A DNA stretch of 64,000 nt, taken from contig NZ_CP058557.1 in the NCBI RefSeq assembly GCF_018141165.1, positions 2,852,001 to 2,916,000 on the forward strand, written 5' to 3'. The stretch comes from Alkaliphilus sp. B6464 (GTDB taxonomy: Bacteria > Bacillota > Clostridia > Peptostreptococcales > Natronincolaceae). The notes below the pieces were generated by a model. That model saw only the letters and a list, made by a program, of their open reading frames with translations, was not told the origin of the DNA and made no database searches. Shown here piece after piece: positions 2,485-62,376 of the stretch (positions are counted from its first letter, which is position 1; every line of letters starts with the position of its first letter). Position numbers and translations under genes: made by a program.

Positions 2485-3944
2485 ATTAGTCCTTCCTTCC
2501 TAGCTATTTCTATTGCTACCTTACGATCATCGAAAGGTAGCACATCTTTACCTATAGTTTGTGTTACTTCATGACCCTTACCTGCAATAATAATTATATC
2601 GTTATTTTTTGCAATTTTCATGGCATATTCTATTGCAGATTTTCTATCCTCTACAACCTTATATTTATCTGTTACTTTTTTTATGCCTGCTTCAATCATT
2701 TCTATTATTTTTAAGGGATCTTCAGTTCTTGGGTTATCAGATGTAATAACGCTATAGTCACTAAGTCTACCAGATATTTCACCCATTACAGATCTTTTAG
2801 TTATATCCCTATCTCCACCACATCCAAATACTGTAATTATGCGATTTTTAGCGAATTCCTTGGCAGATTGAAGTATATTTTCAAGAGCGTCTGGAGTATG
2901 AGCATAATCTACGATTACTGCAAAATCCTTTATTTCTTCAATTATCTCAAATCGCCCTGGTATACCCTTCATACCATTTAGTCCAGTACATATTTCGTCT
3001 AAGCTTAATCCAAGAATGTAGCAGATTACAATTGCTGGCATTATATTATAAACAGTAAATATACCAGGTATTTTAACATAAATAGATCTTGTCCCAACTG
3101 GTGTATGTATGTCAAAATGTACGCCTTTAATATCTACATTTATATTAGTAGCATAAATATTAGCCTTTTCTTTAATACCGAAGGTAAGTAAAGGTACTCT
3201 AAGTTTTTTTATTTCATCTGCTATAATCTTTCCATGAAAATCATCGACATTAATAATATTACATAATGTTGTCTTATAAAACAACTTTTTCTTTGCATTT
3301 CTATAATTATCCATATTGCTATGAAAGTCTAGGTGATCTGGAGTTAAGTTAGTGAATACGCCTATAATGTATGTACATCCTTCTACCCTTCCTAATTCTA
3401 AAGCATGGGATGAAACTTCCATTATACATGTATCTATTTCTTTTTTTATCATTTCAGCAAATATTTTTTGCAAGTCTAAGGCTTCTGGCGTAGTTCGAAC
3501 AGCCTCCCTTTCTATATCTCCAATCCAGTTTGATATAGTACCAATTAGACCAACGTTTTTGCCATGAAACTCCAAAATACTTTTAACCATATATGTAATT
3601 GAAGTTTTTCCATTTGTACCTGTAATACCTATTACCGGTAATTGTTTTGTAGGTTCCTCGTAAAAACGATTTGCAATTAATGCCATTACTTTTCTCGAAT
3701 CTTCAACTTGAATAACAGTTACATCATCTGTTTCAATTTCCTTTTCTGTAATAATTGCTGTAGCACCTCTATTAATTGCATCTCTTACATATAAATGTCC
3801 AGTAGTTTTAAAACCATCTATACATATAAATAAATTGTCTTTTTTTATTAATCGTGAATCAAAATGAACATCACTAATCTCTATATCAATATTTCCTTTA
3901 ACTTTAATAACTTCAATATTGTTTAATAATTCTTTTAAGAGCAT
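2481..3944 (-). CDS. murE: UDP-N-acetylmuramoyl-L-alanyl-D-glutamate--2,6-diaminopimelate ligase MurE
   Basis: Adds the third amino acid of the peptidoglycan stem peptide. In the 487-residue protein the ATP loop GTNGKTS is at about 109-115, DYAHTPDALE near 346-355 and DNPRTEDP at 403-410. In this family DNPR is characteristic of enzymes specific for meso-diaminopimelate rather than lysine, so a DAP-type wall is inferred. The start follows a GGAGGTG ribosome site. A terminator-like hairpin separates it from the upstream penicillin-binding protein gene, so part of the cluster's transcription may stop before murE. Confidence 0.96.
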   Translation of the reverse strand: MLLKELLNNIEVIKVKGNIDIEISDVHFDSRLIKKDNLFICIDGFKTTGHLYVRDAINRGATAIITEKEIETDDVTVIQVEDSRKVMALIANRFYEEPTKQLPVIGITGTNGKTSITYMVKSILEFHGKNVGLIGTISNWIGDIEREAVRTTPEALDLQKIFAEMIKKEIDTCIMEVSSHALELGRVEGCTYIIGVFTNLTPDHLDFHSNMDNYRNAKKKLFYKTTLCNIINVDDFHGKIIADEIKKLRVPLLTFGIKEKANIYATNINVDIKGVHFDIHTPVGTRSIYVKIPGIFTVYNIMPAIVICYILGLSLDEICTGLNGMKGIPGRFEIIEEIKDFAVIVDYAHTPDALENILQSAKEFAKNRIITVFGCGGDRDITKRSVMGEISGRLSDYSVITSDNPRTEDPLKIIEMIEAGIKKVTDKYKVVEDRKSAIEYAMKIAKNNDIIIIAGKGHEVTQTIGKDVLPFDDRKVAIEIARKEGLI

Positions 3945-48651: not shown

Positions 48652-50748
48652 TTATAGCTTTAATCTACTATCTGTTGATTTTAAGTTTATTACTTCCTTT
48701 GAAATAACATAAGGACTATATGTAAAAGTTGTTAATATGATAAATACTGTTAGAAACATAATTGTCAATTTTAAATAGTTCTTTGTCTGAGTCTCTTTAT
48801 TAAATATCCAAGTTACAAACAAAGAAAATAATAGAATTAATAGAATAACTATATATTGGGAGTTATAAAAAGATAGTAGTTTAGGATAAATAATAGAGTA
48901 TCTATAGTCATAAAAATTATTAAATCCCTTCATAAATACAATGTAAGTGACTAATGACACAAATAATAAGTAACTGGTCTTATTAAATTTCTTTGAAAAA
49001 TAATGTAATATAGTTATGATTAAAATAATCAATAGTAAAACAATACTTAAATAGACTATCATAGGTAAGGTAGAAAAAATATTATTAGCTAACATATAAC
49101 CCAAGGAAATTGACGTAACATTAACATCTTGCATAAGCAGTCCTGTAATTTCACTTATATTATGCTTAGTTTGCATGATTAAAACAGTAATGAAAAACGA
49201 CATCAATAAATATGTAGTTATAATCGGTTTAGAATTTAACCATAATCCTAGTTTATTTTGTTTAGATTTATTTGATATATAGCATTTTAAAAGCACTAAT
49301 ACAGCTCCAATAGGAATTAACCACCATGTAGCCATAAAAATATAAGCTACTTCTAAAAGTAAATGTTTATTCCCATAATATTCAATATAGTTATTGATTA
49401 AAATACCGACTTCTTTGATCTTAGATAGATTAATATTGCTAACAGTATTTAAAGTTGTACCAATATTTTCATTATTATTATAAGTAAGTATTGAAGCTAC
49501 AATGCCAGAATTTCTAAATAAGATATGTTCTCCATCCACATAACTATCATCTAACTCATGTGAAATTTCTAATTGATTACTAATATTATCAAATTGATTT
49601 AATACCTTCTTCCCTACTAATCTATTAACCCTTGGATTTAAAAATGTAGCAATTTTTAATATACTCTCTTCTGGTGCAGATACATTATCTAAATAAATTA
49701 TTTCAGTTTTCTCTGGTGGAACTAGAAGATCTCTTAAATACTCCATAATCCCTACAGATCCAATGTGTTTACCATTAAACCCTGCAAATACAATGGTAGA
49801 ATCTATCTTTTCATCTTTAGCTGCAAGTACACGGGCTAGTTCAAGCATTAAAGAGGTAGATGTAGCATTATCCGACGCTCCTAGATATTGTTCCTTTTTG
49901 CAATTCATTCCTAAGCCATCTATAGAGGTTGCTATTATAATATAATTACCATTAGGATAACTAGACCCTGGTATAAATCCATAAATATTATTAGATAAGA
50001 CTGTATTAAAAGAAATCGGCACATGTATATCAAGCTTATATCCTTCATTTGTATAAGAGATTAATTTCTCATACGTCCCATCATTTACACCAATTTTAAT
50101 AAATCCTTTAGTTGGAAGCCATTTGTTTTTATATCCTAAGTTAATATTTGGTTCTTTAATGGGATGAGTTTCTGGATAAATAATTACGCTAGTTTTTCCT
50201 ATATAGTATAATCTGTCATCTACTTCTTCTTGACTAAGTCCTAGCTTTTTTATGCTATCATCTTCATAGTTAATAAGAATAGCTTTATCTTTAAATTTAT
50301 CACTAGATTCAATAAGTTCTTTAGGATTAATAACATGTGTTATATTTCCTTTAAAGCTCCCTCCCATACTCATATTATCTAATCTAATTGTAAAGTCTTT
50401 CCTTTCTTCATATGAATCAACTATATCTCCATTGTTATTAATTACGTTAAACCTTGGTGATCCAATCCATTCAAAACTAACTGTTTCAAATTCTTTTTTA
50501 TATCCTTCTTCAATAAAACTATGTAATCCAATGGATTTAAAGTGATTTTCTATATACTCCACGGTTTTTTCATTACCTTTAGTACCAATTAATCTTCCTT
50601 CGTATTTTGCTGAGGTCAATATATCTATATGGGATTTAATATTAACTTCCTCAATATTTGCTTTTATTGGCTGCCCAATAGCATAGCCAGTTGTAAAGAC
50701 TAAAACAAATAATAAGAGAAAAATTAATTTTAAATATACATTTTTCAA
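48652..50748 (-). CDS. Membrane-anchored M28-like protein, predicted catalytically inactive
   Basis: 698 residues: a signal-like helix (about 7-26), an M28-type domain with an inserted PA-like region (about 30-450), and about seven membrane helices in the last third. Compared with active M28 aminopeptidases the zinc sites are damaged. The HxD motif reads TSID, the catalytic Glu-Glu pair reads Lys-His in FAGFNGKHIGSVG, and the final His before Thr reads Gly (NIGTTLNT). The bridging Asp in ASDNATS and the Asp in YLDN remain. The start is a TTG behind AGGAGG. A ligand-binding or regulatory role is possible. Confidence 0.7.
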   Translation of the reverse strand: MKNVYLKLIFLLLFVLVFTTGYAIGQPIKANIEEVNIKSHIDILTSAKYEGRLIGTKGNEKTVEYIENHFKSIGLHSFIEEGYKKEFETVSFEWIGSPRFNVINNNGDIVDSYEERKDFTIRLDNMSMGGSFKGNITHVINPKELIESSDKFKDKAILINYEDDSIKKLGLSQEEVDDRLYYIGKTSVIIYPETHPIKEPNINLGYKNKWLPTKGFIKIGVNDGTYEKLISYTNEGYKLDIHVPISFNTVLSNNIYGFIPGSSYPNGNYIIIATSIDGLGMNCKKEQYLGASDNATSTSLMLELARVLAAKDEKIDSTIVFAGFNGKHIGSVGIMEYLRDLLVPPEKTEIIYLDNVSAPEESILKIATFLNPRVNRLVGKKVLNQFDNISNQLEISHELDDSYVDGEHILFRNSGIVASILTYNNNENIGTTLNTVSNINLSKIKEVGILINNYIEYYGNKHLLLEVAYIFMATWWLIPIGAVLVLLKCYISNKSKQNKLGLWLNSKPIITTYLLMSFFITVLIMQTKHNISEITGLLMQDVNVTSISLGYMLANNIFSTLPMIVYLSIVLLLIILIITILHYFSKKFNKTSYLLFVSLVTYIVFMKGFNNFYDYRYSIIYPKLLSFYNSQYIVILLILLFSLFVTWIFNKETQTKNYLKLTIMFLTVFIILTTFTYSPYVISKEVINLKSTDSRLKL

Positions 50749-58446: not shown

Positions 58447-59946
58447 ATGACAACTTTTCTTATTGGGCTAGCAATACTTATTATTGGCGGACTTATTTAT
58501 GGAAAATACTGTGAGAGTGTTTTTGGTCCTGACGATAGACCTACGCCAGCTGTTAGTAAGGCTGATGGTGTAGACTATGTAGTAATGAAATCATGGAAAA
58601 ACAGTTTAGTGCAATTATTAAACATAGCAGGTACTGGGCCTATTCTGGGACCTATCCAAGGTATTTTATTTGGACCTATAGCATTTTTAACTATACCCCT
58701 TGGATGTGTTCTTGCCGGTTCTATGCATGATTATTTCTCTGGAATGATCTCTATGAGAAATGGTGGAGCTCAAATGCCTAAGATGGTAAATAAGTACTTA
58801 GGCGGTGGGGTTCATAAGGTATACAATATTATTATGTGGGTATTGATGCTTTTAGTTGGAGCCGTTTTTGTTTATACACCTGGAGACTTAATAGTTACTG
58901 AGTTAATTGGCCAGGAAGCTGTTGCTTCAAATAAGGTATTGTGGATAGTATATGGTGCTATATTTCTTTATTATCTAATTGCAACCTTATTCCCAATAGA
59001 TGCAATTATTGGTAAGGTGTATCCGGTGTTTGGTGGAATTCTTATACTATCAGCTGTTGGGGTTTTTGTAGGAATAATAATGGATGGTGGAGCGAATCTT
59101 ACAAATTTAGCTTTAAATGCTAACATATTCTCTCAACATCCTTCTAAACTTCCATTTATGCCTATATTCTTTATCACTGTTGCCTGTGGTATAATGTCAG
59201 GATTCCATTCAAGTCAAGCAACATTACTTTCTAGAACTGTTAAGAGTGAAAAAGAAGGAAAAATGACATTCTTTAACATGATGTTAGTAGAAGGATTTAT
59301 CGCCATGGTATGGGCTGCAGGAGCTATGATATTATTTAATAGAGGAACAGCTCTTGACACAAATGCAACTCTAATGATAGGTCTTGTTTCAAGAGAATTC
59401 CTAGGAAGTATAGGAGCAATCTTTGCGATTATCGGGGTTATAGTACTTCCTATAACATCAGGAGATACTGCATTTAGATCTTTAAGACTTATGATTGCAG
59501 AACAATTCAATATAGATCAAAGTGATGCTAAAAAGAGAGTCGCTGTTACTGCCGCTATATTTGTGCCAGCACTTCTAATATTAGGATATGCTAAATTAAA
59601 TCCAGCTGGGTTTAACATACTATGGAGATACTTTGCTTGGACAAACCAAACAGTTGGAATATTTGCACTGGCAATGATTACAGTTTACCTATCTATTCAT
59701 AAGAGAAACTATTGGATATCATTGATACCAGGTATGTTATATACATTTGTTATATCTAGTTATATCTTCCATGCTCCTATAGGATTTGGTTTAGAAGGCC
59801 GAATTGGTTCTATGTTTGGACTTAGCCCAGATAGTTATATGATTTCTTATGTATTAGGTGCAATTTGTGTATTACTTTACACATTTGGTATTTTTAAAAG
59901 AGCTTCTAATAAAGAAGAACAAATCTTACAAAATGCATTAGATTAA
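58447..59946 (+). CDS. cstA: CstA-family carbon starvation / pyruvate transporter
   Basis: Polytopic membrane protein of 499 residues, shorter than E. coli CstA (701). It starts MTTFLIGLAILIIGGLIYGKYCES, and the family motifs LLNIAGTGPILGPIQG and PITSGDTAFRSLRLMIAEQF are present. E. coli relatives carry pyruvate or peptides. AAGGAGGAG precedes the ATG. Together with the preceding LytS/LytT pair it forms a sensor-transporter unit. Pyruvate is the best candidate substrate by analogy with BtsT. Confidence 0.9.
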   Translation: MTTFLIGLAILIIGGLIYGKYCESVFGPDDRPTPAVSKADGVDYVVMKSWKNSLVQLLNIAGTGPILGPIQGILFGPIAFLTIPLGCVLAGSMHDYFSGMISMRNGGAQMPKMVNKYLGGGVHKVYNIIMWVLMLLVGAVFVYTPGDLIVTELIGQEAVASNKVLWIVYGAIFLYYLIATLFPIDAIIGKVYPVFGGILILSAVGVFVGIIMDGGANLTNLALNANIFSQHPSKLPFMPIFFITVACGIMSGFHSSQATLLSRTVKSEKEGKMTFFNMMLVEGFIAMVWAAGAMILFNRGTALDTNATLMIGLVSREFLGSIGAIFAIIGVIVLPITSGDTAFRSLRLMIAEQFNIDQSDAKKRVAVTAAIFVPALLILGYAKLNPAGFNILWRYFAWTNQTVGIFALAMITVYLSIHKRNYWISLIPGMLYTFVISSYIFHAPIGFGLEGRIGSMFGLSPDSYMISYVLGAICVLLYTFGIFKRASNKEEQILQNALD

Positions 59947-59961
59947 AATAGTATATAATTT

Positions 59962-59996
59962 AAACAGGATTACCTTTGAAAGTAATCCTGTTTTTT
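59962..59996 (+). terminator. Intrinsic terminator of cstA
   Basis: AAACAGGATTAC (59962-59973) pairs with GTAATCCTGTTT (59982-59993) over an 8-base loop, and the right arm runs into TTTTTT. Confidence 0.92.
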
Positions 59997-60018
59997 GTAT
60001 GACTACAGCAGTAAATAC

Positions 60019-60058
60019 TTAAAGGGACTATCCTTGATATTAGCGATAGTCCCTTTAA
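60019..60058 (-). terminator. Hairpin after the MscL-tail ORF
   Basis: A perfect 14-bp stem (60019-60032 with 60045-60058), core AAAGGGACTATC, lies 34 bases after the stop of the small minus-strand ORF. The T content after it on the minus strand is low. It may also back up the cstA terminator on the plus strand. Confidence 0.6.
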
Positions 60059-60091
60059 TATTTAATGAAAGTTTGTATTTACTTTCACTTT

Positions 60092-60208
60092 CTATTTTGC
60101 TTCAACCTTGTTTTGTTTTAAAATATCTCTTATTTCTTCTAATAAAAGTTCTTCCTTTGATGGTTTCGGTGGTGCTTGTGGTGCAAATTTTTTAAACTCA
60201 TTTAACAT
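60092..60208 (-). CDS. 38-residue ORF resembling the C-terminal bundle of MscL
   Basis: Starts ATG at 60208 behind TAGGA and reads MLNEFKKFAPQAPPKPSKEE followed by LLLEEIRDILKQNKVEAK. The segment APPKPSKEELLLEEIRDILK matches the conserved cytoplasmic tail of the large mechanosensitive channel MscL, a proline linker and then the (E/K)E-x-LL-x-EIRDLLK helix that forms a pentameric bundle. The membrane part of MscL is missing, and an in-frame stop lies 11 codons upstream. It is either a decayed mscL remnant or a short gene expressing only the tail. A hairpin follows it. Confidence 0.6.
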   Translation of the reverse strand: MLNEFKKFAPQAPPKPSKEELLLEEIRDILKQNKVEAK

Positions 60209-60241
60209 GAAATTCCTATCTTTGTAATAATTTTATTTGTT

Positions 60242-60508: not shown

Positions 60509-60689
60509 TTAAAAACCTCCTGATAATCTCAGTTTATCTTTTACATAATTAAGATAATAAACTTTTGTGCTTCATATGTCAATAGGTTGAAATATAAATC
60601 ATTATATATTATAAGCTCTGGCAATAATTTAATGTATACTACTCATTAATTTGGATAAGATGATATAGTTATTGTTTTAAATTAGTACC

Positions 60690-60724
60690 TTGCATTAAAA
60701 GGTAGTATATTATATAATGTACTA
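60690..60724 (+). promoter_or_regulatory. padR promoter with overlapping operator palindrome
   Basis: TTGCAT (60690-60695), 17 bases, then a perfect TATAAT (60713-60718). A 22-bp palindrome with one mismatch, half-sites TAGTATATTAT and ATAATGTACTA (60703-60724), covers the -10, ending 25 bases before the padR start. A binding protein here would block RNA polymerase, so PadR autorepression is likely. Confidence 0.75.
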
Positions 60725-60749
60725 AAGAATATAATAGGGAGAGAAACTT

Positions 60750-61070
60750 ATGAACATACAATTTAAAAAAGGCGTACTAGAACTTTGTGTTCTTTCCTTG
60801 CTAGTTAAAAGAGATTATTATGGCTATGAGTTAGTAGAGCATATTTCTATATTCATAAGCATATCTGAAGGAACTATCTACCCTTTACTTAGAAGATTTC
60901 GTACAGAGGGATATGTAACTACTTACTTACAAGAATCTCAAGAAGGTCCACCTAGAAAGTATTACAAAATAACTTCTAAAGGCAAGGAAGTATATGATGA
61001 ATTAGAAATAGAATGGGAAAGTTTCGTTAATGGGGTTAATAATATTATAAGGGGTGTTTTTAATGAATAG
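60750..61070 (+). CDS. PadR-family transcriptional repressor
   Basis: 106-residue winged-helix regulator with the full PadR core: [39 protein letters not shown] (recognition helix and wing), [20 protein letters not shown]. Its last 8 bases overlap the following DUF1700/DUF4097 gene, an arrangement widely seen in Firmicutes, where the membrane protein is the partner of the regulator. GGGAGAG precedes the ATG. The effector is unknown. Confidence 0.93.
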
Positions 61071-62304
61071 AAAAGTATACTTAGAACAATTAAAATTTGC
61101 CTTACAAGGCATGCCTAATGATGAGTTGCAGGATATTTTGTATGACTACGAAGAACACTTTGACATAGGACTTTCTAAAGGAAAATCCGAAGCAGAAATT
61201 TCAAATGAATTAGGAGATCCTCAACAAGTTGCAAATAATTATAAAATAATATCTAATCCTGCTAATTATGATAAAAACTATAATAAAAATAACAATTATT
61301 CTAATGACAATACAAGCAAAATAATATCTAAAAAAATATTACCTATTTTAGCTGGAGTAACTATTGTGGTCTTTGGAGTTGGTCTACTATATTTAATGAT
61401 AAGCAATAATTATAGACCTGGAAATTTTATGAATATTATGTCTATAGATGGAGTAGTAAAATCTGAAACTATTGATAAAAACATGACTGAAGGTATTAAT
61501 GGAGTTAACAGCATTTCTGCTATTACCAGTTTTGTAGATATTAAAATTATTCCACAAGAAAGAGACGATGTAAGAATTTATTACCACGGAAGCATTATAT
61601 CCAATATTGTACCAGATTTAAATGTAACCAAAGAACTAAATAATTTAAAGATAGAGTTGAAAACTCGAAAAAATATTTTTACAAGTGTACGTAAATCTGA
61701 TTTAGTTTTAGAAATATTCGTTCCGACTACTTTTGATGGAAGTTATAATATAACTTCCTCTTCTGGCGATATAGATATAAGTGATTTAAAAGGAGAAAAG
61801 TTTAATATTAATGCTAGTTCTGGTGATATAGATATAAGTAATCTAAAAGGAGAAGAGTATAATATTTATGCTAGTTCTGGCGATATAGATATAAGTAATC
61901 TAAAAGGAGAAGAGTATAATATTAATGCTAGTTCTGGCGATATAGATGTAAAAAATATTAATGGTGAAACATTAAATATAGTAACTTCTTCTGGTAATAT
62001 TAATGCACAAAACTGTATAGGTTATTTATATATGACTAGTAGCTCGGGTGATATTATATTAGATCTTGAAAATACATCTGGAAATATAGATTTATCTACA
62101 TCTTCTGGAGATATGACATTAAAACTATCTGATAAATCAAACTATGCAGTTACAGGTTCAACTTCTTCAGGAACCTTTAAATCTAATATTCCAATGACTA
62201 TAGATGAAAATAAGAGTGGTAGATTTAAGGGAACAATAGGTTCTGGAGATAAATATATTAAGATATCAACTTCATCTGGAGATGTTAGATTTGATAAAAG
62301 ATAA
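61063..62304 (+). CDS. DUF1700 / DUF4097 membrane protein, partner of PadR
   Basis: Starts ATG at 61063 ([20 protein letters not shown]), behind AAGGGG, giving 413 residues. It has an N-terminal DUF1700/HAAS helical region (about 1-65, with [19 protein letters not shown] and [12 protein letters not shown]), a membrane helix (about 90-112), and then an extracytoplasmic beta-roll of DUF4097 type with many SSGDI/V turns. Four consecutive 19-residue repeats (SSGDIDIS, then LKGEEYNI and N-A) are almost the same. It is likely a sensor or surface protein. The function of this pairing is not established. Confidence 0.88.
61756..61980 (+). repeat. 57-bp tandem repeats inside the DUF4097 domain
   Basis: The word TCTGGCGATATAGAT (with one T/C change in a unit) starts at 61762, 61819, 61876 and 61933, exactly 57 bases apart. 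Each unit encodes one 19-residue beta-roll turn. The second and third units are the most alike, which points to recent copying. Confidence 0.9.
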
Positions 62305-62376
62305 ATAAAGTTTAAAGGATATTTTATTGAATTTATCCGAGAGTATAGATAAATATTAAATATTAATAGGAGAAAA

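Follow-up and report, generated by a model that had tools for sequence, protein, structure and literature searches.

The window, a stretch of 64,000 nucleotides from Alkaliphilus sp. B6464 (contig NZ_CP058557.1), carries on its minus strand an open reading frame (ORF) of 38 codons with an ATG start at positions 60092-60208, as an earlier, sequence-only reading of this DNA had stated. Upstream, in the same orientation, lies a gene for an 88-aa LPD15-family protein (PF18828; 60242-60508, minus strand), which is also present at the corresponding loci of the two other genomes of the genus that were compared, G001 and G002. Free-standing 88-aa LPD15-domain proteins are found in all three genus genomes, in Anaerovirgula multivorans and in Alkaliphilus peptidifermentans. 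On the other side of the ORF, a convergent gene identified by family match as cstA-like (58447-59946, plus strand) forms a flank that is conserved in both G001 and G002, and a terminator-like site with 12 pairs and a T run follows this gene (59962-59993, plus strand). A sigma-70-like promoter match (11 of 12 positions; 60554-60582, minus strand) is located upstream of the LPD15 gene and could serve both this gene and the ORF; nine such sites occur in the region against 6.0 expected in shuffled sequence.

The downstream hairpin noticed earlier is confirmed as a strong computed fold of 22 pairs (53 nt; 60012-60064, minus strand) placed 3′ of the ORF, between it and the cstA-family gene. No run of T accompanies it on the minus strand, and its computed stability far exceeds that of the corresponding stretch of G001 (-32.2 versus -15.9 kcal/mol). 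An origin as a repeat element was considered and rejected, as the hairpin is single-copy in the genome and has no match beyond itself and its reverse complement.

The translation of the ORF, from 60208 to 60092 on the minus strand, is MLNEFKKFAPQAPPKPSKEELLLEEIRDILKQNKVEAK. A phmmer search against solved structures matched its tail to four MscL sequences with E-values of 3.7e-5 to 4.7e-5, and residues 10-33 align with residues 2-25 of a 29-residue MscL chain that is present in five copies in its entry (PDB code 4lku). Pfam is weak by itself here, since the score against the MscL channel family PF01741 is 12.7 bits, below the curated cut-off of 27.4. The assignment of the tail to MscL is borne out by a sister mscL gene, described below, whose DNA is 96% identical over 101 bases. 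An in-frame stop had been placed 11 codons before the ATG; the nearest is in fact the ninth codon before it.

The genome of G001, a sister within the same genus and the closer of the two others compared, has about 95% DNA identity to the window across the region and contains a complete mscL of 134 aa at the equivalent locus, where it follows the 88-aa LPD15-family gene and converges with the cstA-family gene, exactly as the ORF does in the window. Its product starts with MLNEFKKFA-LKGNVLDL and ends with VAPQASPKPSKEELLLEEIRDILKQDKVEAK. When the two loci are aligned at the DNA level, a single gap of exactly 288 nt (96 codons) falls inside the gene, and 115 of the 117 remaining bases of the ORF are identical to G001. 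The ORF thus corresponds to the sister MscL minus residues 10-105. Its codons 1-9 (MLNEFKKFA; 60182-60208, minus strand) match the N-terminus of the sister protein in 9 of 9 residues, so that the claim of a match to the cytoplasmic tail only does not hold. The following 29 codons (60095-60181, minus strand), ahead of the stop codon at 60092-60094 on the same strand, encode the MscL C-terminal linker and bundle helix; 27 of the 29 residues are the same as in the sister protein, and the C-terminal cytoplasmic helix is present in this alignment.

MscL has an established topology of a first transmembrane helix (TM1), a periplasmic loop and a second transmembrane helix (TM2). Because of this topology, together with the alignment to solved MscL chains, the lost part can be identified as TM1, the loop and TM2. 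It had been observed that no membrane segments are encoded upstream of the ORF, which is correct, but their absence is internal to the gene, where the ORF lacks the 288 nt that specify these segments in G001. The ORF therefore resembles the PF01741 channel in its native start, its nine N-terminal residues, its C-terminal bundle helix and its location at the locus of the sister gene, while it differs in having neither the two transmembrane helices nor the periplasmic loop, and hence no channel, and in its sub-cut-off Pfam score. The native start is accompanied by part of the amphipathic N-terminal S1 helix, for which the accessible text of PMC4917966 gives the consensus F-[K,R]-x-F-[A,I,L]-x-[K,R]-G; the first five positions of the motif are kept (FKKFA), and the remainder was lost at the junction.

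The hexanucleotide TTGCAC occurs twice in the intact gene, at positions 1523-1528 and 1811-1816 of the sister locus (L008), at a spacing of 288. The window retains a single copy at the deletion junction (60181-60186, minus strand), where alignment to G001 places the 288 missing nucleotides. Bacterial pseudogenes that arise by deletion between short direct repeats are a known class, and the ORF shares with them a single internal deletion with six-base repeats at its breakpoints and one repeat copy left; unlike in typical members, the length deleted here is by chance divisible by three, and for this reason the frame stays open. Breakpoint homology of at least 6 bases is found for 0.3% of the 59,685 possible breakpoint pairs in the sister mscL, a count that covers deletions of at least 60 nt in that gene. 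Since such homology is rare at random breakpoints, a deletion guided by the repeat is likely. It has to be taken into account, however, that the intact gene contains 25 pairs of repeats with a length of 6-7 bases and a spacing of at least 60, so that TTGCAC suggests the mechanism without proving it. In addition, 13 of 28 six-base pairings in this gene fall in frame, and neither the TTGCAC repeat nor its phase is special among the repeats of the gene.

Two further presence/absence differences between the window and G001 were seen. A stretch of 1659 bp (60703-62361), which holds a gene for a PadR-type regulator and a HAAS + DUF4097 gene with repeated SSGDIDIS segments, is missing from the matching site of G001, and a second difference of 843 bp is located at 49287-50129. 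At both sites the BLAST blocks share 9 bases on the G001 side; no repeat-mediated origin is claimed for the two, as only 3 and 0 bases are exactly repeated at the BLAST ends of the 843-bp and the 1659-bp difference, respectively.

In the third genome of the genus, G002, mscL is missing from this locus, and the end region of the cstA-family gene comes immediately after the LPD15 gene. No MscL profile or tail match was obtained anywhere in this genome, which is 92% complete. Among the 20 genomes of the family (G000-G019), MscL was found only in G001 and G012, and the distribution among relatives is patchy, with MscL present in 17 of the 60 genomes sampled, the window's own included. Loss of mscL, or its gain followed by loss, is common in this group. 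In two MscL proteins of the order, located from position 1501 of loci L010 (from G028) and L013 (from G031), a zinc-ribbon-like end of the type CPxC..CPHC replaces the helical bundle tail.

The window genome comprises 3.86 Mb in two contigs and is rated 100% complete with 3.68% contamination. A profile search of this genome with PF01741, which gave matches in 10 of 14 control genomes, returned no match. When the DNA of the intact sister gene was compared with the genome, the ORF locus was the only significant match (96% over 101 bases, E = 3.3e-41); the next-best DNA match had an E-value of 0.016 and consisted of short stretches, and a relocated or second mscL was discarded. The full-length mscL that had been proposed as worth looking for elsewhere in the genome was accordingly not found by either the profile or the DNA search. 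One match to the MscS family was detected in the window genome, and all three genus genomes are positive for this family.

Free-standing MscL tails were sought in 393 genomes of the order with a tail profile at E ≤ 0.05. The tail alignment consisted of the window and 8 of the 17 MscL loci (L008, L007, L001, L004, L006, L017, L012 and L011); L002, L003, L005, L009, L014, L015 and L016 were not part of it, nor were L010 and L013, both of which end in another domain. Matches were obtained in 162 of the 393 genomes. Among the matches listed, the stop-to-stop frame was shorter than 90 aa at 5 of 150 places, the window's own included. A match in G110 was rejected as the gene is split by contig ends, and one in G154 as it is a frame-broken relic in which a sequencing error is possible. 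This latter locus (L063; contig 80, about 3162-3427), from another family of the order, has the appearance of an independent mscL relic, with its pieces in different frames. The matches in G010 and G388 share only the EIRDLLK helix motif and were likewise dismissed as free-standing tails; they correspond to small proteins (L064 and L066, respectively) with one membrane helix apparent by eye, the MscL-tail-like EIRDLLK and no other MscL sequence. Among the 150 matches listed from the 393 genomes, which include three of the genus, there is no other intact free-standing MscL tail, and the suggestion that relatives might keep the 38-codon ORF in this form found no support there. Among the titles and opening abstract lines listed for the literature on the MscL C-terminal bundle and on mscL pseudogenes, no description of a natural tail-only MscL ORF was encountered.

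A ribosome site ahead of the ATG, as had been proposed, is present in the form of a Shine-Dalgarno-like AGGA (60214-60217, minus strand). Its computed pairing to the anti-Shine-Dalgarno sequence is weaker than that of the matching site in the sister gene (-7.0 versus -9.4 kcal/mol). The 33-base spacer that holds the site differs from G001 at four positions, three of which lie in or beside the Shine-Dalgarno sequence. A GGGG run precedes the mscL of G012 too in a loose alignment, which hints at most that the form seen in the window is the derived one. The spacer shows a higher proportion of changes than the LPD15 gene and the ORF combined (4/33 versus 9/384; p = 0.014), and it has not changed more than nearby intergenic DNA (18/277; p = 0.27). 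The substitution rate therefore does not demonstrate decay of the ribosome site, as the spacer is no faster than intergenic DNA and the changes are too few.

The ORF itself differs from G001 at 2 of 117 bases, with both changes nonsynonymous and none synonymous, numbers too small for a verdict on selection. The corresponding counts are 7 of 267 bases for the LPD15 gene and 11 of 145 for the stretch that follows the ORF. One of the compared positions is codon 13, which encodes P in the window; since P is also found at the aligned place in G012, the difference at this codon probably arose in G001. The comparison of the ORF with nearby intergenic DNA (2/117 versus 18/277; Fisher p = 0.075) was counted against the ORF being a relic, as were the intact frame, the intact start and the plausible ribosome site. 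The pooled local rate gives a probability of 0.025 for zero changes over 21.7 synonymous sites, and the rate of the LPD15 gene one of 0.13. However, the low change in the ORF may just as well stem from constraint at a time when both lineages still carried a full mscL, and the substitution tests do not distinguish selection on the shortened ORF from selection on the entire gene ahead of its deletion.

A functional micropeptide would be the result if the deletion product were translated and its tail helices assembled with one another into a small, soluble five-helix bundle that had acquired a new role. The match to the 29-residue chain of 4lku, with five copies per entry, agrees with such a bundle, as does an intact frame behind a plausible ribosome site. 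According to the accessible text of PMC6167328, the isolated C-terminal domain of E. coli MscL is pentameric, and that of PMC5722894 describes the bundle as remaining oligomerised even without the membrane segments. Given that the isolated tail oligomerises, a translated 38-mer could, by analogy, form a small soluble bundle. The likeness to the E. coli domain of 4lku extends over the aligned residues 10-33 of the ORF; the chain in that entry is, in contrast, a laboratory fragment, whereas the ORF comes from a natural deletion and has nine additional N-terminal residues. The frame and ribosome site had earlier been read as a mild argument for expression. The start, the position of the ribosome site and the frame were all inherited from mscL, however, and are for that reason not independent support for a new peptide. 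With no free-standing relative among the 150 tail matches listed from the 393 genomes, we regard a functional micropeptide as quite improbable, and no sign was seen that the 38-mer has taken on another function. The more specific proposal that the in-frame deletion turned a channel gene into one for a soluble five-helix bundle peptide with a severed piece of S1, which is translated and useful in the lineage, appears very improbable.

A peptide acting on a channel encoded elsewhere had also been envisaged, in which the 38-mer would mix with the tails of full-length MscL and tune the channel. MscL tails do associate as a bundle of five helices (accessible text of PMC5722894), but the 100%-complete window genome contains neither a full-length MscL nor any other significant DNA match to the gene. 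Mixing with full-length tails is therefore excluded for the genome as assembled, and the chance that it takes place in the organism is negligible. The assembly could itself be at fault, such that the species has a complete mscL from which 288 nt were lost in assembly. The 38-codon deletion product is indeed observed in one genome only. Assembly collapse, however, needs repeats far longer than 6 bases, the deletion is clean, and the assembly has the quality given above (two contigs, 100% complete, 3.68% contamination); an artefact of this kind is extremely unlikely.

We conclude, with a probability of about 0.92, that the ORF is the in-frame deletion relic of an ordinary mscL and is probably without function. 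Of the two possibilities raised from the letters, a last remnant of a lost mscL or a functional peptide, the former is supported by the syntenic, intact mscL of G001 and by the single 288-nt in-frame deletion. Relatives that carry a whole mscL here, with a frame broken elsewhere, had been named as an outcome that would speak against the earlier reading: such a relative exists, while the frame in the window is not broken and has been shortened in phase. In keeping with an mscL pseudogene, an intact orthologue is present at the equivalent locus of a close relative, and the essential domains are destroyed, here by the 288-nt gap.

In the most plausible sequence of events, an ordinary mscL located after the LPD15-family gene would have undergone one internal deletion of 288 nt, which slippage or short-homology joining between the TTGCAC repeats may have produced. 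With this step the pore helix TM1, TM2 and the periplasmic loop would have been lost, making channel formation impossible, and the nine N-terminal codons behind the native start would have come to share one frame with the 29 codons of the tail. The frame would still be open as the loss was a multiple of three and, presumably, as the event was too recent for a stop to accumulate. Any peptide translated from it would be short and cytoplasmic, with a helical tail, and would most likely have no role. The window organism has lost MscL function, and one detected MscS-family channel remains. The relic represents a small, clear case of a membrane protein gene that was lost in a single step and left behind a tidy ORF complete with a start, a ribosome site and a recognisable domain. 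Read alone, such relics resemble purposeful micropeptides, and syntenic relatives are worth checking first. The case fits a view of MscL as dispensable in this group.
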